Below, piece by piece: positions 13,774 through 23,045 of a stretch of 64,000 bases of DNA; the stretch's first letter is position 1, and the number at the start of each line of letters is the position of its first letter. Below the pieces are notes generated by a model. It had not been told where the DNA came from. It worked only from the letters and a program-made list of their open reading frames with translations, and did not search any database. The stretch comes from Spiribacter curvatus (GTDB lineage Bacteria > Pseudomonadota > Gammaproteobacteria > Nitrococcales > Nitrococcaceae): positions 1,674,001 through 1,738,000 of the forward strand of contig NC_022664.1 in the NCBI RefSeq assembly GCF_000485905.1. The letters are read 5' to 3'. The translations under genes were made by a program, and so were the position numbers.

Positions 13774-14580
13774 TTACGCCACTATCCGGGCCTCGAATGC
13801 ATCAGGGCTGATGTATCCGAGGGCAGAATGGCGACGGGTTCGGTTGTACTCCACTTCGATGTACTCGAAAAGGACCTGGCGCAGGGCGTCGCGGTGCATC
13901 AGCGGCACACCATGGATGCTCTTGACCTTCAGGCTGTGGAAGAAGCTCTCCACTACCGCATTATCGAAGCAGTTGCCTCGGCCACTCATGCTGGCGACCA
14001 GTCCGTAGCGACGGATCAGGTTCCGGTGATCCCAGCCACAGTAAACGCTGCCGCGATCCGTGTGCATGATCACGCCGCTCGGCTCGCCACGCCGGGCAAG
14101 CGCCGATCGCAGCGCCGTGCAGGCGAGCTCAGCGTCGATGCGCGTGCTGGTTGCCCAGCCGGTCACCTTGCGCGTGCACAGATCCAGGATCACCGCGAGG
14201 TAGAGCCAGCCCTGTATGGTCCGCAGGTAGGTGATATCACCCGCCCACTTCTCGTCTGGCCGTGTCGCACTGAAGTCCTGAGCCAAGAGATTGGGCGCGA
14301 CACCGAGCGAGTGACCCGAGTCGGTGGTATGCCGAAAGGGTTTGGCCGCGCGGGCCCGCAGCCCTTGCCGGCGCATACTCTCAGCCACGGTCTTGCGGTT
14401 CATGGCCATGCCTTCAGCCTCCAGCTCCTCGCGAAGGCGAGGCGAGCCGTAGCGGCGCTTGTTCGCCTCAAACAGCTCGATCACTTTCGCGTCCCGCTTG
14501 GCCCGCTCGGCCAAGCGTTGCGGAACGCTGTCCCGACGGCGCAGCCATGCGTAGTAGCCACTGCGCGAGACGCCGAGCAC
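13774..14580 (-). CDS. IS3-family transposase, OrfB (DDE domain)
   Basis: 268 aa from the ATG, containing the HTH-like N-terminal SRSGYYAWLRR and rve integrase core: DEKWAGDITYLRT (first Asp), VIMHTDRGSVYCG (second Asp) and FDNAVVESFFHSLK (Glu), ending with the usual YNRTRRHSALGYISPDAFE. The frame is open upstream to about 14638, in the -1 frame relative to OrfA (encoding LKYAAIHQHRSAHSIAHQC). As in other IS3 elements, the active transposase is therefore presumably an OrfAB fusion made by programmed frameshifting. No classical A-rich slippery run is obvious at the junction. The element appears intact. Confidence 0.92.
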   Translation of the reverse strand: MLGVSRSGYYAWLRRRDSVPQRLAERAKRDAKVIELFEANKRRYGSPRLREELEAEGMAMNRKTVAESMRRQGLRARAAKPFRHTTDSGHSLGVAPNLLAQDFSATRPDEKWAGDITYLRTIQGWLYLAVILDLCTRKVTGWATSTRIDAELACTALRSALARRGEPSGVIMHTDRGSVYCGWDHRNLIRRYGLVASMSGRGNCFDNAVVESFFHSLKVKSIHGVPLMHRDALRQVLFEYIEVEYNRTRRHSALGYISPDAFEARIVA

Positions 14581-14636
14581 CGCGCACTGGTGCGCGATGC
14601 TGTGGGCCGATCGATGCTGGTGAATGGCGGCGTACT

Positions 14637-14939
14637 TCAGTCCAGCTTCTTCGCGAAGTACGCCGCGGTTTTTTCCAGGATCGTGACCTCTTCGGTCTTG
14701 TCGGCGAGCTGGCGCTTAAGCCGGGCATTCTCCTCACGGAGCTGGCGTTCTCGGTCACTGACGGACTTCTCGTGCGCCGCCTTCGCTCGCCACTGATAGA
14801 TCTGCGTGGCGTGCAGGCCGAGCTCACTGGCTGCGGCTGAAACACCGATGCGCTCGGCGAGCGCCAGCGCCTCGGCATGATATTCCGCGCTGTAGCGGAC
14901 CCTTTTGCGCTTCGGCATGTCGTTGGCTGCTGTTGCCAT
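14637..14939 (-). CDS. IS3-family transposase, OrfA
   Basis: A 100-aa protein with an N-terminal helix-turn-helix (ISAAASELGLHATQIYQW type, here GVSAAASELGLHATQIYQW) that binds the IS ends, followed by a leucine-zipper region (LREENARLKRQLADKTEEV) and the terminal TILEKTAAYFAKK. It is encoded upstream of OrfB, with its stop codon overlapping the OrfB frame. Confidence 0.9.
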   Translation of the reverse strand: MATAANDMPKRKRVRYSAEYHAEALALAERIGVSAAASELGLHATQIYQWRAKAAHEKSVSDRERQLREENARLKRQLADKTEEVTILEKTAAYFAKKLD

Positions 14940-15236: not shown

Positions 15237-15969
15237 CTAGTACAGCGTCGTCCCATTCAACGCCGAGGAAATCAATAACACGCCGTATCGTTGGCTCGAA
15301 ATTTGTCACTAGCTCGTCGTAGTAAACGTAGCAGACACGATCAGTTTCTCCGGGGAAAACTTCAAACCAGTTTTTCATCACGTAGTCATAAAAGTCGCAG
15401 GAACTCCAGAACTCATTGAACGCTGCCATTGCCGCATTCTGATGGTATCGTTGTTTAAAATTTGACAGGACGACATCGTATGGGTGCCGCACCGAGAAAA
15501 TATACCGTTTGGCTGGAAACAGCTTCTCCATGTAGTGGATGTCAGCAGATAATATGGGGGTTTTGTCGATAAGAATCGTTGAGGATTTTTGTCGGCGCTG
15601 CTCGAGCGCATCGTAATACAACTCTCTATGTCGAAGCGCGGAATTCTTGGAAGTTTTATCTTCTTCTGATACCTGCTCCGCCGCACGGAATGTGGAAATC
15701 AGCGCTCCGGATTCTTCGATGGTCTCTATCCCTTCATGACTATTCAGAGCATTTTCTAAAAGGGTGGTCCCGGTTCTCGGAAATCCTGTTTGAACAAAAC
15801 AGTCTGCCCTATCGTCCGCCGGCAAGTCTGCAACCTGTTTGTGTGCGTTGGTCTCAAGGTGGTTTATATACGACGTATACTGGAATCTATCATCCCGATT
15901 TTTATCATTTTGCTTCTGGAAATTTTCGAAAGCTTTGCGGAATGAGCCAATATTTTCATAAGATATTGA
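15100..15969 (-). pseudogene. Sulfotransferase domain of a TPR-sulfotransferase; N-terminus missing, C-terminus frameshifted
   Basis: The open frame begins abruptly just after an in-frame TAA near 15970 with SISYENIGSFRKAFENFQKQ, resembling a last TPR helix pair. It then contains the PAPS 5'-phosphosulfate loop FVQTGFPRTGTTLLENALNS, the catalytic-type segment SADIHYMEKLFPAKRYIF, and the PAPS 3'-phosphate segment FSVRHPYDVVLSNF. It has no ATG at the 5' end. A TTG at 15825 (LPADDRADC) could start a shorter 241-aa product. At the 3' end a one-base deletion changes DDYCRSKLDPWVEFFG to DDYAVVS-stop; the out-of-frame DNA still encodes the original ending. The missing N-terminus is probably the TPR fragment at 22402-23045 on the same strand. 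Enzymes of this type sulfate glycans or proteins. Confidence 0.75.
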
Positions 15970-16092
15970 TTAAGGTTCTATGTCTATGACTTCGATGGAA
16001 TGTTTTTTCTTGACCACATGAGGTACAAAGAACAAGACCTGAATGTCATTGACGGTGACAGTAACCGAAAGGACTGGACCTTCTGGTGCGAC

Positions 16093-16296
16093 CTAGACTT
16101 CCCAGACTAACTGATCTTCCAACGCAACCCGTGCACAATGAACGTAATCACGGTCTTCGTCAGACATGTATTTGTAGTAGAGGGACAGGGAGGAGAGTTG
16201 AGACGCAAAGTCGGTTGGGTTGGTGAGGTGTTTACCGTCGATCAGGGATCGTTGCAAAAGGTCGAGTTTCTCTTTGATCTTATCTTGAATACTCAT
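16093..16296 (-). CDS. Small hypothetical protein, phage-type
   Basis: A 67-aa protein starting MSIQDKIKEKLDLLQRSLI and continuing with LSLYYKYMSDEDRDYVHCAR. It looks like small accessory proteins of T4- and T7-like phages, but no function is recognised. A GGAGATCG Shine-Dalgarno precedes the ATG. The frame stops at a TAG after LVWEV and then stays open for 42 more codons (VAPEGPVLSVTVTVNDIQVL and on to IEVIDIEP, TAA near 15970), which read like a genuine beta-rich tail. Either the TAG is a nonsense mutation in a ~110-aa gene or there is a separate ORF without a clear start. Confidence 0.5.
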   Translation of the reverse strand: MSIQDKIKEKLDLLQRSLIDGKHLTNPTDFASQLSSLSLYYKYMSDEDRDYVHCARVALEDQLVWEV

Positions 16297-16330
16297 CGAT
16301 CTCCTTTTCTAAGTGTATTCTCGTTATCGC

Positions 16331-16693
16331 CTAATCCTCATCTTCCAATCTCAATCTTCTTTCAGACAGTGTTTCATTTTCAAACACCCAATAACGAGGA
16401 CCTGTTACTGATGAAGAGTTCCACCCATACTCTCGGTTAAGTAGGACCAAAGATGATTGGGTTAGAGATGTCACTTCGCCTTCGAACTCTACATTTCGGT
16501 CATCCACAACCTCGACGGTGATATTCTCATCACGCACAAAATGAAGTATCGAACCCACCGGAATTCCGACTGAAGAGAATGTAAAGTTGGACCTTCTGCC
16601 CCTCTCCTTATTCAACGATTGTTGCTCTTCCTGGTCTTCGACAAAGTCACTGTTTGGGGTGATATTCTGAAGTTCAACCAACTTCAGTATTGA
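16331..16693 (-). pseudogene. RAMA/DUF4357-like domain protein, 5' end displaced by inverted repeat A'
   Basis: About 120 codons encoding an acidic linker (TPNSDFVEDQEEQQSLNKER) and then FSSVGIPVGSILHFVRDENI, VEFEGEVTSLTQSSLVLLNR and GPRYWVFENETLSERR. This pattern (GIPVGS...VEFxGExxSLSxA...GxxYWxxxGxxL) matches small modules found with restriction-modification and nuclease proteins. The frame runs further upstream to 16897, but that part is antisense to the inverted repeat at 16697-16939, so the true 5' end has been lost or replaced; a TTG near 16680 could serve as a start. The domain assignment is from pattern memory. Confidence 0.45.
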
Positions 16694-16696
16694 TAA

Positions 16697-16884
16697 ACTT
16701 CGCCGAGCACTCGAAGAAACGTGCTGTGAGGACACCCTCGTATGCCAACGTTCGTAAAGGGCTATCTCTAGGCGTCCAGTCCTCTTATCAAAACTACCTT
16801 TTTCTCTTCGACGATTATTGCCGAAGCAAGCTAGACCCTTGGGTGGAGTTTTTTGGGTATACGGTTGAGGAGCCTGAGCAATGA
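16697..16884 (+). pseudogene. Duplicated C-terminal tail of the sulfotransferase, inverted copy A'
   Basis: This + strand fragment encodes FAEHSKKRAVRTPSYANVRK, QSSYQNYLFLFDDYCRSKLD and PWVEFFGYTVEEPEQ-stop. It matches the end of the minus-strand sulfotransferase at 15100-15236 but keeps the original, unshifted C-terminus. It starts without a promoter or start codon at the repeat edge. The 243-bp repeat (16697-16939) also includes the start of the lipoprotein gene that follows with an ATGA overlap. Confidence 0.88.
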
Positions 16885-16961
16885 CCAAAACAATCATCTT
16901 TACCCTAGTAATCCTCCTCCTATCCGGCTGCAGCGGTATTCCCTTAGTACCGGGTATCTAA
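16881..16961 (+). CDS. Very small lipoprotein (26 aa)
   Basis: The ATG at 16881 overlaps the stop of the sulfotransferase tail (ATGA) and gives a 26-residue product: a basic start (MTK), a hydrophobic stretch (TIIFTLVILLL) and a lipobox SGC with the Cys at position 17, followed by only nine residues (SGIPLVPGI). The size resembles entericidin- or Rz1-like lipoproteins. The same start exists at 15053, where the IS cuts it. Conservation in both repeat copies argues that it is a real coding sequence. Function unknown. Confidence 0.5.
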   Translation: MTKTIIFTLVILLLSGCSGIPLVPGI

Positions 16962-16970
16962 CCGGAGCAT

Positions 16971-17525
16971 ATGAAAGACCTCGACATCGCTATCGTCCTG
17001 CTGAGTCGGCAACAAGAACGTCTCTCTAGGCAGATAAAGGCGCTTTATGACGAGGACTTCGACTATCCCACCCTGAAGCGATGGCGAGATGGTTGGGCCT
17101 CTGAATTACCTCTGCTGAAGTATCACCCAGATTTACTCCCAGCCGTTGATGCGCTCCTCGAGGAGATGGAGGAAGGTCGATGCCCCTTCTCTGTAATGGA
17201 CAAGGCGCGTCTGGAGGTCTGGAAGTACCACAAAGCTTGTTGGCCCCTTCTCAAAGACATGGGGATTGATCTAGGCGCCTACATGGATGACTTCGGGGCC
17301 ATTGAATCTGACCTGAAGGCAACATTTCGGCAGGAGTATGAACAAAAGAAAAGGCTGACTAATCAGGAACAAGCTGATTGGGTAAAATCTATCCTAGTGC
17401 CTCAGATTGATGATTGGTTAGCTAAAAGGGCGAGAAAAGCATCTATTTTGATGGCCACTGCTGAAGCTCACAGCAAAGCGAATAAGGTAGTGGATGCGGC
17501 TAAGCGATTTATGAAGAAGATCTAA
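16971..17525 (+). CDS. Hypothetical protein (184 aa), helical, element-encoded
   Basis: The sequence starts MKDLDIAIVLLSRQQERLSR after an ACCGGAGC ribosome-binding site. It is strongly helical and charged, with tryptophan-rich segments (YPTLKRWRDGWASELPLL, LEVWKYHKACWPLLKDMG) and a basic C-terminus (AAKRFMKKI). No conserved motif or family is recognised. It lies 9 bp after the small lipoprotein frame and is followed by another small ORF on the same strand. Codon use is AT-richer than the core genes, as for the rest of the element. Confidence 0.65.
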   Translation: MKDLDIAIVLLSRQQERLSRQIKALYDEDFDYPTLKRWRDGWASELPLLKYHPDLLPAVDALLEEMEEGRCPFSVMDKARLEVWKYHKACWPLLKDMGIDLGAYMDDFGAIESDLKATFRQEYEQKKRLTNQEQADWVKSILVPQIDDWLAKRARKASILMATAEAHSKANKVVDAAKRFMKKI

Positions 17526-17719
17526 TTATAGGCTCTCTTAGAAGACTTTACCTTTTAGCAGTAGGGTTGCCTCATATAAAAAGAGAAAAACGCTCACAGA
17601 GCTTCTGCGGGAGTCTCAGGTGCATTCACTGTTTCTATCCTAGCTTCTTATCTACTAATTAGCCTGAAACGTGATCTGGTTCACAGAATTATCGGGTAAT
17701 GGGGTCTAACCTCTGCCCT

Positions 17720-17989
17720 ATGAATTTAACGAGACCTAATCGACAGACAAAGATGCTGTATCGGTGGCTAACCGAGAGCGAGGAATCTGCTCGCTATTGG
17801 CGCCAGCAGGCTGAGGAAAATAGTCCCTCTGATCTGTCCCTGATGCTGACCTTGTGGGCGGTGGAGGAAGTTTCAAAACTACCACCTTCTATGGTGAGAG
17901 ATTCAGCGATGCTGACCTTGCAGGTTGTGGAATGGGACATCCTTGCGAAGGCCATTAGAGAAGGATATGACCATGCTTCAAACTATTGA
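17720..17989 (+). CDS. Small hypothetical protein, element-encoded
   Basis: About 89 aa from the ATG at 17720 (alternative starts at 17699 and 17753; none has a strong ribosome-binding site). The sequence contains MLYRWLTESEESARYWRQQA and LMLTLWAVEEVSKLPPSM, is helical and ends IREGYDHASNY. No family is recognised. It is separated from the upstream 184-aa gene by ~195 bp of AT-rich DNA and is followed by a hairpin at 18031. Confidence 0.5.
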   Translation: MNLTRPNRQTKMLYRWLTESEESARYWRQQAEENSPSDLSLMLTLWAVEEVSKLPPSMVRDSAMLTLQVVEWDILAKAIREGYDHASNY

Positions 17990-18030
17990 TTCGCATAGGG
18001 TTATTTTTGACTGGGAGATGGTTGTTGGGG

Positions 18031-18060
18031 AGCGCGCGTTAGTGGTAAGCGCGCTTTGTT
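18031..18060 (+). terminator. Probable rho-independent terminator
   Basis: Arms AGCGCGC (18031-18037) and GCGCGCT (18049-18055) enclose an 11-base loop and are followed by TTGTT. It would end the + strand genes of the element before the convergent gene at 18150. Confidence 0.45.
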
Positions 18061-18149
18061 AGGTTTAACTAATACTGTAACCAATTGTTATTAATATTCA
18101 CTTAGTCGGATAGGCAGAAGTGATATTATTGGGATGATCGAATAGAACG

Positions 18150-19634
18150 TTAAGATCCATTCATCTTCCATTGTTGAAACTCCTCTAGTCGTGTCCTATA
18201 TCCATCTGTGATTTCACTCTCATTTGTTTTTTCTTGCTTTATGGGAGGGTTCGGTACACCTGTTACCTTCTCAAAGGCTTTTACCATTTGTTCCTTGAGT
18301 TGTTGCTTGTATTGGCTCTGAATGATCACAGAGTCATGTACGGAGAGGACTGGAATGTTGTTTTCGGTGAAGTGATTGATGATATGACTCATGATACGGC
18401 TGTCGATATTCATGAAGCCAATCCCAGCATCTGTCCCAATATAATGTCTGATAGGTTCATTGAGTAATAGGAATTCTTTGAGTAGCCACTGACAACTGCT
18501 TTTATTCAAACCAATATCAGGACGGTCTCCATCTTTTACCTCTTGTTCATAACTCTCAAGAAACTTGTGGGTTCCTATCTCTGGGGTATTTGCATTAAGA
18601 CAGATCAGCACGATTTGCTTAACATCACTGCGCTGCTGTACTGAGTCGCCATCGTAATCCGGTAGCGTATAGGGCAACCAATAGGGATCTTCAGGCGCTT
18701 CCAATCCCTCGCTGGCATATGCAATGCGAATGTGCAGACCTGAGTAGTCCAACTCGACAGTCGGCTGGTCATCGATTCGGATGTCTGCTCGAAGGTGTTT
18801 ACCGATATGCTGCCAGAATCCGCCGTAAAACCTGCCATCGCACTCAAAGCTCGATCGACCAAAGATGCGCCGTACGAATTTACTATGTTGACTGATGCGC
18901 TGGTAGCGCGCTTGAGGAGTTCTTTTGTTCGGATCCCTTTGTCTGATCCCGATAGCAGGAACCTCGAGACTTCCAATATCGACAAACGTAGCCGCAAGCA
19001 AGCGATTATAGGCAATAAGGCGTTCGCGCAGCGTGCTCACTGCATAAGGGGCTCGGACTATATCGTCGTTAGTTCTTGGTTCTGGTTCATCGGCATCGAG
19101 GTATTCAATGTCAATCTGTCTCTTTGACTTGTCGCCAACAGGTTGTCGGAGCACCACACACTCCCTGCCGGCCATTTGGCCGATTACATTGAGGTTAAAG
19201 GCGACGCTGTCAAACCATGCCTCGAGTCTTTGAGTTGGCCAGATTCGAGTTGTCCACTTCAACTGAGGAGTGATGTCGCCTTTGAGCTCCCCTAGTAAGC
19301 CCTGTGCGATCAGATGTTTCACAATGTCTCTAATCTTTCGTGTGATTGGCAGTGTATTGTATCGGCTGGCTGGTTTGTAGGACGTTGTGTCGTGAGAAAC
19401 CGTCAAACACTGTTGTGGATCTTCACCCCAACATACTAAGAGATCCAACAAGAGCACCTTAAACTGGTCTCTAGGCGTGCTTACTGGGGGACGTCCCCGC
19501 CCATCATTTGGTTTATCAAACGTTGCCGATAGATATTCGCTCCACAGCGCATTCACCCATGCATCGACCTCTAGGTCATCACTCCATCGATGGATATTAA
19601 AAGGACGAGAGTTCTGCCAGTCACGTTCAGTCAT
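18150..19634 (-). CDS. Protein with winged-helix-like N-terminal part and family-A polymerase-like motifs; candidate replication protein
   Basis: 494 aa, start supported by a GAGGTG site upstream of the ATG. Residues ~290-440 carry the order of motifs seen in family-A DNA polymerases and single-subunit RNA polymerases: motif A-like VELDYSGLHIRIAYA (Asp296), motif B-like RSDVKQIVLICLNA (Arg335, Lys339; the usual Tyr-Gly at +8/+9 is Asn347-Ala348) and motif C-like VLSVHDSVII (His433-Asp434). The A-to-C distance (~138 residues) is shorter than in PolI. There is no 3'-5' exonuclease domain. Residues ~75-125 (NTLPITRKIRDIVKHLIAQG) look like a winged helix. It sits downstream of the integrase in a small mobile element, so a role in initiating or carrying out element replication is the best guess. 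Polymerase activity is unproven and the motif B change is a warning. Confidence 0.6.
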   Translation of the reverse strand: MTERDWQNSRPFNIHRWSDDLEVDAWVNALWSEYLSATFDKPNDGRGRPPVSTPRDQFKVLLLDLLVCWGEDPQQCLTVSHDTTSYKPASRYNTLPITRKIRDIVKHLIAQGLLGELKGDITPQLKWTTRIWPTQRLEAWFDSVAFNLNVIGQMAGRECVVLRQPVGDKSKRQIDIEYLDADEPEPRTNDDIVRAPYAVSTLRERLIAYNRLLAATFVDIGSLEVPAIGIRQRDPNKRTPQARYQRISQHSKFVRRIFGRSSFECDGRFYGGFWQHIGKHLRADIRIDDQPTVELDYSGLHIRIAYASEGLEAPEDPYWLPYTLPDYDGDSVQQRSDVKQIVLICLNANTPEIGTHKFLESYEQEVKDGDRPDIGLNKSSCQWLLKEFLLLNEPIRHYIGTDAGIGFMNIDSRIMSHIINHFTENNIPVLSVHDSVIIQSQYKQQLKEQMVKAFEKVTGVPNPPIKQEKTNESEITDGYRTRLEEFQQWKMNGS

Positions 19635-20062
19635 AGCAACACCTCGAATCGTTAATTACTGTTAAAGGAAGGAACGCCAAATTCTTAAGTTTTCCGACGT
19701 ATTAGAAAAGTGCATTAAAAAGAGTGGGTTGGGGGCCTACAGATTTCTTACCCGGTAAAAAACTATCTGCCCTGTGTCTCATTAGATCGCTCCTAGGGCC
19801 AAAGTGTGTGTGTGGTCTATGAATATCGGATATGGGACCCAAACAAATCTAGGGGGGGGGCCTAGCCCGGAGAGGGCCCCATCAAAAGCCCCGTGTTCCT
19901 TTATATTTATTCCCTAATAAGCTAGCGAAGAAAGCAAGCCCTCTGAAGAGGGCAGTAAAATCTAATAAATAGTGTATAAACAGTAGTTTAGGAATTCAAA
20001 GCAGGACGTGAAAGAGCTGTTAAATCCTAGCCTCAGCCCACCACCAGCCTCTCTAAAAAAAG
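19635..20062. other. 428-bp non-coding region upstream of the polymerase-motif gene
   Basis: No convincing gene. The region has a G9 tract flanked by CTAG/CCTAG (around 19850-19864), a TG-dinucleotide run, AT-rich blocks and a hairpin GCCCTC-TTCA-GAGGGC (19938-19953, read on the minus strand, followed by TTGCTTTCTT) that could be a terminator for the integrase transcript. The long leader between two same-strand genes could hold an origin or regulatory RNA of the element. No iteron series was seen by eye. Confidence 0.4.
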
Positions 20063-21244
20063 CTAAGCGGCCTCTATCACGGGCTGGGTGAAGGCTTTCT
20101 CCAGACTTGCCCCAACGCTACCTGTTGCCTCATGGAGGGTCTCTTGAGACAGGTGTGCATAACGCTGGGTTGTAACGGGTCGAGCATGACCGAGGAGATT
20201 TTGTACCTCGTACAGGCTTCTGCCGCTATTCACGAGGAAGGAAGCAAAACTGTGGCGGAGGTCATGAATGCGCAGATCCTCTAGGCCCGCTCTCTTCCGG
20301 GCTGTATCCCATGAGTTGAAGAGCTGCATATAAGGTTTGCCTGTGTCCGGGTTGGGGAAAGCATAGGGGCAGTCATCCAACCTCGGGATTGTCTCCAGCA
20401 GCCGGATAGCGGCATCACTGAGGGGTATGTACCGCGTCCTTGCAGACTTGTTCTTCGGCAGCAGCCACTGACGACTTGAGAAATCAAAGTCTTCCCACTT
20501 TGCGTGCAGGACCTCGTTACGCCGAGCGCCTGTCAGTAGCAGCATCGCCACAATGTACTTGAGCATCTTGGAGTTTGACTCCTCCACGGCCCGCATCAAC
20601 CGCTGAGCCTCTTCAACACTGAGGAATCGCTGGCGCTGGCCTTCGTCCGCCATCTTGGGGATATCCTTTGACGGGTTCTTGGTAACCCCGGGGACTTCCC
20701 ACTTGATCGCTGTATTAAACAGGTGCCGCACAAGCACAATCACACGATTAGTAGACCCGGGCTTGTGGTCTATCTGATGCTGGGTGAACAAATCCACGAG
20801 GTGCTGTCGGCGCACTTCATCCATATAAAGGTCACCGATGGCTGGAAGGATATGGTTCCTCAGCAGAGATTCATCACTGACACGATCCCGCTTGTAACTG
20901 AGCAGGTACGGGAGAAAGCTCCCTGAGACGAACTGTGCAACTGTTGGAGTGGCTCTGTGCTCGGCTTTCTCTTCCCTTGGGTCTTCACCCCTAGCAACTT
21001 GCCCGTTGACCTTTTGAGCTGCTTTACGGGCATCAGCCAACGTCAGTCCACCAACACGGCCAAGCCGATAGTGGCGCCGCTTGTCCCGGCTATCCATATA
21101 GCGCAGGTAGAATGTTCCAGTCCCGTTTGAACGGATCTCTGCTACGAGACCATGGACCTCGGTGTCGATCAGGTTGGTCGTTCGCTTACCGGCTGCGCAG
21201 TTGGTCTGCTCAAGGAGTTTCTCGGTTATCTTAACTTTCGGCAT
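20063..21244 (-). CDS. Tyrosine site-specific integrase (P4-type, DUF4102 N-terminus)
   Basis: 393 aa from the ATG at 21242-21244 (MPKVKITEKLLEQ), which has an AGGAGA site 6 bases upstream; the longer frame does not. The N-terminal arm-binding part (FYLRYMDSRDKRRHYRLGRV, LTLADARKAAQKV) is of the DUF4102 type, followed by a SAM-like core-binding domain and the catalytic domain: TGARRNEVLHAKW (Arg), HDLRHSFASFL (His-x-x-Arg), LLGHARPVTTQRYAHLS (His and nucleophile Tyr). All catalytic residues are present, so it should be active. It would integrate or excise the element. Such integrases usually target tRNA genes, but none is adjacent here. It is divergent from the XRE gene with 48 bp between. 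Confidence 0.95.
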   Translation of the reverse strand: MPKVKITEKLLEQTNCAAGKRTTNLIDTEVHGLVAEIRSNGTGTFYLRYMDSRDKRRHYRLGRVGGLTLADARKAAQKVNGQVARGEDPREEKAEHRATPTVAQFVSGSFLPYLLSYKRDRVSDESLLRNHILPAIGDLYMDEVRRQHLVDLFTQHQIDHKPGSTNRVIVLVRHLFNTAIKWEVPGVTKNPSKDIPKMADEGQRQRFLSVEEAQRLMRAVEESNSKMLKYIVAMLLLTGARRNEVLHAKWEDFDFSSRQWLLPKNKSARTRYIPLSDAAIRLLETIPRLDDCPYAFPNPDTGKPYMQLFNSWDTARKRAGLEDLRIHDLRHSFASFLVNSGRSLYEVQNLLGHARPVTTQRYAHLSQETLHEATGSVGASLEKAFTQPVIEAA

Positions 21245-21292
21245 AGAGGGTCTCCTGCTACTGTAGAAAATCTCACTACACACCTAGTATAA

Positions 21293-21703
21293 ATGATGTC
21301 TGAGAAATCTTCAAGTACTCTTGAGCTATCCCATAGGATGATTGCGTTAATCTTGTGCCTAAGAGCAGCGCGGTCTGTTCTGGGCTGGAGTCAGACGGAG
21401 CTAGCTAGTCGAGCTGGTATATCTAAACCTGCCCTGAATCGCCTAGAGCGCTTTGAGAGTGAGCCCCGCCTTGAGACTGTCCTAAAGATTGAAGAGGCCC
21501 TCTCTGCCGCCGGTGTGGTGCTCGAGCGGCAAAGCGACGGTAAGTCCTCGATCATTCTTCAGCCAGAGGTCATTGAGGAAATGAGCGAGCGCATTAAAGC
21601 TGGCGAGAGTGTCACCTCACGAGGAAAGGTGGGGGGCGTGAAGGAGGAGAGGACCCGTTTCTTCAGCCGTGAGCAAATGGACAAGCTCAATAAAAAGCAG
21701 TGA
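21293..21703 (+). CDS. XRE-family helix-turn-helix regulator
   Basis: A 136-aa protein whose residues ~30-65 form an XRE HTH (LGWSQTELASRAGISKPALN followed by RLERFESEPRLETVLKIEEAL). The C-terminal half is charged and ends SREQMDKLNKKQ. It is transcribed divergently from the integrase across a 48-bp gap, which suggests it controls integrase expression like a phage repressor. A 65-codon frame from the GTG at 21700 overlaps its end but has no supporting features. Confidence 0.85.
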   Translation: MMSEKSSSTLELSHRMIALILCLRAARSVLGWSQTELASRAGISKPALNRLERFESEPRLETVLKIEEALSAAGVVLERQSDGKSSIILQPEVIEEMSERIKAGESVTSRGKVGGVKEERTRFFSREQMDKLNKKQ

Positions 21704-21949
21704 CGAGGCGATCGCCGAAGGCTACTGACAGTCCGTGGTCAGACATGCGTAAGCACTATCAGACGCCAAAATTCCCTATAAAGCCAATTAAATCAACTGG
21801 TTATATCAATATAGTGCCCTTACAGGGGGCTGTCGCGTCAGTTTTTGGTAAGTCTGATCGTCAGATATTGGCAAGTAACAGCAGAGGCAAGCCTTGAAAC
21901 CCGCCTGTATCCCTTAGATATCGCCAATGATGCCTGAGAAGTATTTGTT

Positions 21950-22401
21950 CGCTCACTACAAGCATTGATGACTTCACCGGTACCGCGGACGACGATACGT
22001 TTGAGCAGACTGCCGACGGACAGCTGTCCATCGACGACACGCTGGATGGTGGTGCTGGCGATGACGTCCTGTACATCCGTGATCAGGACGGCGCTACTGG
22101 TACGTTCGCTGCTACGAACATCGAGACGATCGATGTGCGGGCGAGTGAGGACAACGCTGACATTGAACTCGATAATGTTACGGGTTACACAGCGCTCGTC
22201 GCGAATGCCCTGACTACTGATGGAACGGACGCAGATGACCTCGAGTTTACCGAGATTGAAAATTCTGCGGACCTCACCCTTGAGGTGAAAAATATTGCGG
22301 CGGCTGACGATCCGAACGCTGTCTTCACGTTCGCTGACGATGAGTTTGACGGCGATGATGACACCGTTAGCGTGCGGCTAGCTAACAATACCAACGCATA
22401 T
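21950..22401 (+). pseudogene. Inverted internal fragment of the DUF4214/RTX surface-protein gene (repeat B)
   Basis: 452 bp on the + strand match 24743-25194 of the minus-strand surface-protein gene, with no length difference. The first ~150 bp have diverged (for example DDTFEQTADGQLSIDDTLDG against DDKFEQTKDGQLSIDDTLDG; VLYIRDQDGATG against TLFVRDQDGGTG), while the rest is almost identical. The fragment has no start. It reads into unrelated sequence (LHIAIRAAA-stop) at its right edge, which abuts the truncated TPR gene. It is a partial duplicate or silent cassette. Confidence 0.93.
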
Positions 22402-23045
22402 CTCCACATAGCTATACGTGCTGCTGCATAAATTAATGGTCCGTCAAACCCACCCAATTGGCGAGCGGCCGACGTTACTTGTTTAAACTCTTCTCGGGCG
22501 TCCTCCCTGTCAAGAAGGTGCAGAAGGGAAAACAAATGCAGAGCGTAGTTGGAATTGTCGATTAACGTTAGGCGGAAATAGTAGCCCCATGCACGACGCC
22601 ACCCTAAGTTATCCCTTGCCTCCTCCGCTGCTTCTTGCAAATATGTTATGTCACCAGTTTCTACGTACAGGGTTTCGCAGGCACGGACAACGTCAGCAGC
22701 TCTGTGCTGGGCGTGTGCCAATAGGTACTGCTGTTCGGCGAGATGAAAACTCAGTTTGTCCTGCGCAAAGCCCTCGAGGGCGCGAACCTGTTCAAATTCT
22801 CCGCAAGCCCTTAGCGGCTTTATGAGGTTTCGTCTGACATAGGCACTCTTCGGGGCAAGGACCATCGCATACCGCATGAGCGCCGGAGGAATCGCTTTTT
22901 CGTGCGGTATTATCTTTGGCAATAAGGCGATCGAGAGCATTGGATCTTTAGTCGCCAAACAGCCATGAAGGCTTCTGTAATCCGACTTACCAGCATAGCT
23001 GCGAATTAGCTCGATAGCTTCGGTAAAGCTTATTTCTTTACTCAT
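22402..23045 (-). pseudogene. TPR-like N-terminal part of a probable TPR-sulfotransferase, 3' end cut off by repeat B
   Basis: About 214 codons from the ATG at 23045 (MSKEISFTEAIELIRSYAGK). The helical repeats resemble TPRs (VRRNLIKPLRACGEFEQVRA, RAADVVRACETLYVETGD, NLGWRRAWGYYFRLTLIDNS). At 22402 the coding sequence (LIYAAARIAMW) stops matching anything sensible and continues as the antisense of the inverted surface-protein fragment, giving an artificial tail to 22185. The missing C-terminal half fits the sulfotransferase fragment at 15100-15969, which is on the same strand and begins with a TPR-like helix pair. It is directly downstream of the surface-protein gene, after a terminator. Confidence 0.7.

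Follow-up and report, generated by a model that had tools for sequence, protein, structure and literature searches.

The polymerase gene

The DNA analysed here (the window) is a 64,000-nucleotide stretch from Spiribacter curvatus (NC_022664.1, positions 1,674,001 to 1,738,000). At 18150..19634 on the minus strand it carries POL (P0001), an open reading frame (ORF) for a 494-residue protein with a predicted winged-helix-like part and family-A polymerase fold; the plus strand across 18150-19634 has many stops. A Shine-Dalgarno-like GAGGTG (19640..19645, minus strand) lies just 5' of the POL ATG. The guanine-plus-cytosine (GC) content of the gene was 47.1% compared with 59.7% for the window, and POL was the sole POL match across the 1.93-Mb host genome. 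This copy sits in a bacterial chromosome, not encoded by a tailed phage, next to a gene for a 406-residue tyrosine integrase (20063..21283, minus strand; Phage_integrase, PF00589, 2.4e-29, and Arm-DNA-bind_3) and, divergent from the integrase, a gene for a 136-residue regulator of the XRE/Cro-C1 type (21293..21703, plus strand; HTH_3, 3.9e-11). An initial annotation of POL had stated no strand; it had named an integrase, an XRE regulator and small ORFs as companions, and all were present as described. With a confidence evenly poised between yes and no, we propose that POL is the replication protein of a small integrative element.

Polymerase-type motifs were found in the order A, B and C, all on the minus strand. 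Motif A, VELDYSGLHIRI, contains Asp296 (18747..18749); motif B, RSDVKQIVLICLNA, contains Arg335 and Lys339 (18618..18632), with Asn347-Ala348 beyond it; and motif C, VLSVHDSVII, contains His433-Asp434 (18333..18338), 138 residues separating positions 296 and 434. The residues and the spacing were in place as first annotated. A GRFYG block (residues 267-271, 18822..18836) with an invariant Arg268 was judged by eye to resemble the TGR block of Pol I. Pol I has Tyr-Gly after motif B, where POL has Asn347-Ala348.

Conservation was assessed in two alignments, A2 (33 rows, those other than POL being 16-34% identical to it) and A5 (60 rows of closer relatives). Asp296, Lys339, His433 and Asp434 were kept in 33/33 rows of A2 and Arg335 in 32/33 (one gap), while A5 retained Asp296 and Lys339 in 60/60 rows and Arg335, His433 and Asp434 in 59/60, bearing out the expectation that Asp296 and Asp434 are conserved. 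Asn347 was Asn in 59/60 rows of A5 and mixed in A2. As 55 of the 60 rows in A5 were retrieved by scanning with the patterns GRFYG[GP][WF]W and [LT]DL[YL][VL][AC]W[GQL]E, and four by a similar scan, conservation of the pattern blocks is partly built in; Asp296, Arg335, Lys339, His433 and Asp434 lie outside these patterns. As judged from the alignments, residue conservation in POL exceeds chance. The ratio of nonsynonymous to synonymous substitution rates (dN/dS) was 0.09-0.35 in seven of eight close pairs of relatives, the synonymous rate being saturated in the eighth.

Fold and family of POL

Structure prediction makes it nearly certain that POL has a polymerase fold of the family-A palm/fingers type; the initial annotation had anticipated such a palm. 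The top 48 fold-match rows (VIA) were DNA polymerases, and a mitochondrial RNA polymerase was also among the fold matches. The model of the N-terminal part (residues about 52-150; 19185..19481, minus strand) returned mostly winged-helix-type rows, and a canonical thumb was assessed from these fold rows. The front end is winged-helix-like, in agreement with the initial annotation, and putatively DNA binding.

Pfam yielded no exonuclease match, as first annotated, and at an E limit of 10 it listed neither DNA_pol_A (PF00476) nor RNA_pol, the two profiles suggested as a check, with HMMER filters discarding most matches above 0.1. Nothing useful was named for POL by Pfam, NCBIfam, PADLOC or the PDB sequences. 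In local hhalign comparisons, E values were 0.011-0.069 for Pol A combined with phage DNA polymerases, 0.024-0.24 for phage DNA polymerases by themselves and 0.11-0.75 for cellular Pol A only, compared with 0.21-0.75 for two unrelated controls; in global mode the controls scored as well as the polymerases. Taken alone, the hhalign evidence for POL as a polymerase is unconvincing. Compared with family-A DNA polymerases (Pol I, T7 gp5, apicoplast Pol), POL shares the palm/fingers fold, the motif order and the key residues, but differs in having no exonuclease or listed DNA_pol_A match, Asn-Ala for Tyr-Gly and just 138 residues from motif A to motif C.

The initial annotation had also said of the N-terminal half that it matched nothing known; POL as a whole does have known relatives. 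PHROG 4756 (function not assigned) matched residues 253-460 at 5.8e-45, and relatives in Caudoviricetes phages were described in 2024 as divPolA2 (PMC11348598). A 56-row profile of POL and 55 genome-collection relatives found AUR84708, the model protein of that paper, at 2e-23 in a single-protein search (BLASTP, 3e-7). POL is a member of the divPolA2 / PHROG 4756 family known from phages, within a branch found in bacteria. According to PMC11348598, divPolA2 has an active palm, no exonuclease and an N-terminal globular domain without detectable similarity. POL shares the palm with its catalytic residues, the lack of an exonuclease, the N-terminal globular domain and a variable neighbourhood; it differs in the winged-helix-like character of the N-terminal part and in the location of its relatives, which are found in bacterial integrative elements that carry an integrase. 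The bacterial integrative branch is not mentioned in sections 13-14 of the paper.

Spread of the relatives

When POL was the single query, scans of the genome and viral collections yielded no relatives; alignment A3 did find them. By tblastn, POL matches were detected in 275/50,697 phage records (Vibrio, 133; Rheinheimera, 115) and 4/72,556 plasmid records. With the window genome counted, profile A1 placed the family in 24/398 Pseudomonadota genomes, 20/213 genera and 2/54 genomes of the order, and POL as a single protein in 4/369 genomes of the class and 1/23 of the family. The genome-collection scan gave 245 stretches encoding relatives, of which the best 80 were used; these were mostly from Rhodobacterales and SAR116, with others from Porticoccaceae, Comamonadaceae and metagenome-assembled genomes labelled Opitutales and Neomarinimicrobiota. 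Some genomes had several matches, partial ones counted (seven in G809, six in G810).

In a quick, midpoint-rooted tree of 94 rows with many long branches, POL grouped with Opitutales and Porticoccaceae proteins (Shimodaira-Hasegawa-like approximate likelihood ratio test [SH-aLRT], 97) within a 56-row bacterial group (SH-aLRT, 100), apart from seven cultured-phage proteins. The bacterial branch in integrative elements is an element-borne variant of the phage family named in 2024, and it is what is new here; no paper on this branch or on the inverted attachment (att) plan described below was found among the listings from searches of the open-licence PMC literature, where two papers use the name divPolA2. 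In one phage record, Vibrio phage 166E36-1 with three matching places, a gene annotated as a homing endonuclease comes directly after the POL relative (L068, 6662-7609).

Relatives in integrative elements at tRNA genes

A tRNA 3' end facing POL within 5 kb was found in 27/61 loci, compared with 2/40 random regions (p 1e-5) and 6/39 integrase-centred regions (p 0.004). The 61 loci were those flanked by 5 kb or more on both sides; the window and the duplicates L041 and L099 were excluded. Random regions came from 17 and integrase regions from 11 POL-bearing genomes; the integrase controls were chosen among the matches listed, leaving out Xer-like ones and those near POL. A tRNA-Gln(TTG) gene was present in 16/60 loci scanned. 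In four loci (L085, L087, L111 and L002), an element of 6.4-9.8 kb is delimited by direct copies of a tRNA-Gln 3'-end core that deviate from the pattern at 1-2 positions; an integrase was found by profile in 3/4, and the POL 3' end pointed towards the tRNA gene in 4/4.

Overall, 22 elements were delimited by cores or direct repeats, their bounds being the author's choices from these features (L108 and L112 least sure). They measured 4.6-15.1 kb (median, 8.9 kb), and 21 of the 22 carried an integrase, 20 by profile and L070 by Pfam, which agrees with the integrative-element carriage first proposed. Integrase was the commonest family (21) of their 132 proteins among the 25 of 70 families listed, and no phage structural family occurred there. 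Cargo among the 25 of 70 or 25 of 65 families listed included restriction enzymes, TerB, RTX and Sel1 proteins. The initial annotation had proposed a survey of homologues for constant linkage to integrase and XRE genes. Integrase linkage proved frequent but not constant, with an integrase within 5 kb of POL in 46/114 loci by strict profile and, by the looser BLAST clustering, in 68 loci within 6 kb; many loci are truncated at contig ends. An XRE-type neighbour cluster was found in six loci only.

Other neighbours were also observed. A serine-recombinase-type cluster was the second commonest, in 18 loci within 6 kb (for example, L061 11917-12480; the one member checked was a Resolvase). A protein of 233-258 residues was encoded on the same strand as POL and no more than about 0.7 kb from it in 7/7 loci having it (L049 8471-9202, L057 11049-11804 and five more), and two of these proteins, when scanned, had no Pfam match. 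POL-less units were seen at L141 13554-21219 and L245 8591-15079, with a different core (CCGTGTGGGGGCACCA), DUF6538-part integrases and inverted core copies.

Inverted cores in relatives

Of the 56 POL loci tested, 13 contained long inverted repeats (at least 100 bp at 90% identity or higher), compared with 0/40 random regions (p 0.0005) and 3/40 integrase regions without POL (p 0.053). The 56 loci were those of 19.9 kb or more, with the same three exclusions as above. One repeat arm overlapped POL or lay within 500 bp of it in 10 of the 13 loci. The arm tip was the tRNA-Gln core in nine loci (9/56 vs 1/40, p 0.042), the second core of L127 being incomplete. L245, one of the three POL-less integrase islands with long repeats, also had inverted att-like cores. 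As such islands carry long repeats too, POL is not claimed to cause them.

Six loci (L080, L107, L130, L094, L102 and L070) followed a common plan: a tRNA gene with a core, the POL half, an inverted core, the integrase half and a core in the first orientation. The L070 integrase was identified by Pfam, and L094 contains a run of 100 N. The three cores were identical within each locus, and the repeats spanned the core, extending 245-492 bp on the POL side (92-100% identical) and 24-335 bp on the integrase side (83-100%). POL was the sole long ORF between inverted cores in L086 and L073, while L074 had inverted cores with more genes and no integrase found by profile. POL lay either way relative to the tRNA gene in loci with inverted cores; the six three-core loci are in draft assemblies, in which a segment flanked by near-identical repeats may be assembled in an arbitrary direction; their orientation is therefore weak evidence for inversion.

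If the element were excised at its outer cores, the resulting circle would measure 7.3-13.3 kb and contain two inverted cores set in repeats. The yeast 2-micron plasmid is likewise a circle with two inverted recombinase cores within inverted repeats. The predicted circles of the six relatives resemble it in these repeats (about 370-750 bp, summed) and in having the recombinase in one half and the replication-like gene in the other. The POL islands differ in being bacterial and integrating at a tRNA gene, and their excision, inversion and amplification are predictions from sequence. It is conceivable, though distinctly doubtful, that the islands are bacterial counterparts of the 2-micron circle, with POL as a one-protein initiator-polymerase and the integrase flipping the POL half during replication to give many copies; the window element would then represent a simple form, lacking the extra inverted core. 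The arrangement in relatives could be used to test stringently whether a bacterial integrase amplifies copy number.

Proposed function and alternatives

If POL replicates its element, the integrase would excise the element at a tRNA-type att core, as the anatomy of relatives suggests. The winged helix would bind the element at an origin-like site, and POL, a template-dependent polymerase with family-A palm and fingers and no proofreading domain, would start or extend copying there. P4-type integrative elements carry a D5 primase-helicase, and one 494-residue protein may do the job of that enzyme here. Both kinds of element hold an integrase and one replication-like gene in a tRNA-associated island; in POL islands, however, that gene encodes a family-A-fold polymerase, and a phmmer search with one D5-type and one T7 primase-helicase found neither in 244 ORFs of the 22 elements. 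Overall, the interpretation in the initial annotation was partly supported.

Several observations weigh against a replication role. The chief one is that phages with a POL relative carry another polymerase: 6/6 such records had a separate PF00476 match elsewhere (3/6 over the cut-off), so the POL relative is not the main polymerase of those phages. PMC11348598 likewise states that divPolA2 is not the main polymerase of its phage, barbaviruses included, and its model protein AUR84708 has no motif-C His. One A5 copy, L148, is without Arg335, His433 and Asp434. The host already encodes a Pol I, and the analysis turned up neither an origin nor a conserved non-coding site, nor any att site or att-like direct repeat around the window POL block. 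Finally, with 25 of 70 families listed, the 22 elements may hold an unlisted replication gene.

POL might instead be a single-subunit RNA polymerase whose winged helix reads an element promoter and whose palm transcribes element genes, which we regard as rather unlikely. Single-subunit RNA polymerases (T7 gp1, mitochondrial) share the superfamily fold, and one was among the fold matches of POL. Motif C of POL has HDS, as these enzymes do, and not the HDE of Pol I, and its region gave weak local hhalign matches to phage RNA polymerases (E 0.007 and 0.009; controls as above). POL is shorter than four phage enzymes (494 vs 779-883 residues). Against this reading, its leading fold matches were DNA polymerases, Pfam listed no RNA-polymerase family for it and, at a position likened by eye to the sugar gate of Pol I, a bulky His occurred in 58/60 close relatives, though Gly in 4/33 rows of A2. 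PMC11348598 suggests either repair or an RNA polymerase role for divPolA2.

POL is unlikely to be an accessory gene (for repair, translesion synthesis or defence against phages) that islands and phages take along as cargo. Such a role would fit an extra polymerase in phages that already have one, the variable POL neighbourhoods and the restriction genes also held by the islands. One of these, a type ISP restriction-modification gene (L111, 7157-9901), ends about 37 bp before POL within the core-bounded element. There was no PADLOC match for POL, however, POL can be the sole long ORF between inverted cores, POL and integrase occur together in 21/22 delimited elements, and tRNA proximity is above that of the sampled integrase islands.

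In L141, a neighbouring POL-less unit that has the same att core encodes a D5_N/DUF5906/Pox_D5 protein in its second half; from this one case we infer that POL may fill the slot of a D5-type protein. That POL is a primase or primase-polymerase merely starting chains for the host replisome would fit this neighbour and the absence of D5- and T7-type hits in POL elements, but is very improbable given family-A fold matches with no primase in the top 50 rows.

Family-A polymerases are textbook enzymes, yet many bacterial genomes (245 stretches in one scan) encode a branch that has no family name, lacks a proofreading domain and has a DNA-binding-like front end. Should POL replicate its island, it would amount to a replication system made of a single protein and to a compact enzyme worth studying, and its relatives may be how mobile islands at tRNA genes copy themselves.

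The window element

In the window, POL, the integrase and the XRE gene lie in a stretch of about 6.6 kb that is flanked by a sulfotransferase gene and a truncated TPR-like ORF (approximately 15826..22433, no strand assigned), with a GC content of 48.6% compared with 59.7% for the window. An ORF of 96 residues without a family match (17699..17989, plus strand) also lies there. In the same-genus genome G011, the flanking DNA was 98% and 95% identical on the two sides, and matches to the sulfotransferase (65% identical protein) and the TPR-like ORF (28%) were about 270 bp apart with no POL match. The comparison with G011 and a repeat search around the block did not locate the exact element ends, a genus-wide search did not reveal a clean junction that would mark an empty site, and an Rfam search of the window from 10 to 30 kb, at gathering scores, returned 0 matches.

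Inverted duplications (93%) lie one on each side of the POL stretch, at 14995-15239/16694-16939 and 21950-22401/24743-25194. They are pieces of the sulfotransferase region and of an S-layer-like gene, each with a near-identical part and the rest diverged. As these repeats are not of the att type, the inverted-att plan is not claimed for the window, whose copy shows no such arrangement. A diversity-generating (template-copying) reading of the repeats was dropped, the mismatches lying mainly in one half and being of many substitution types. At 13774-14939, ORFs resembling an IS3-type transposase pair, named by eye from the ORF list, adjoin the sulfotransferase gene.
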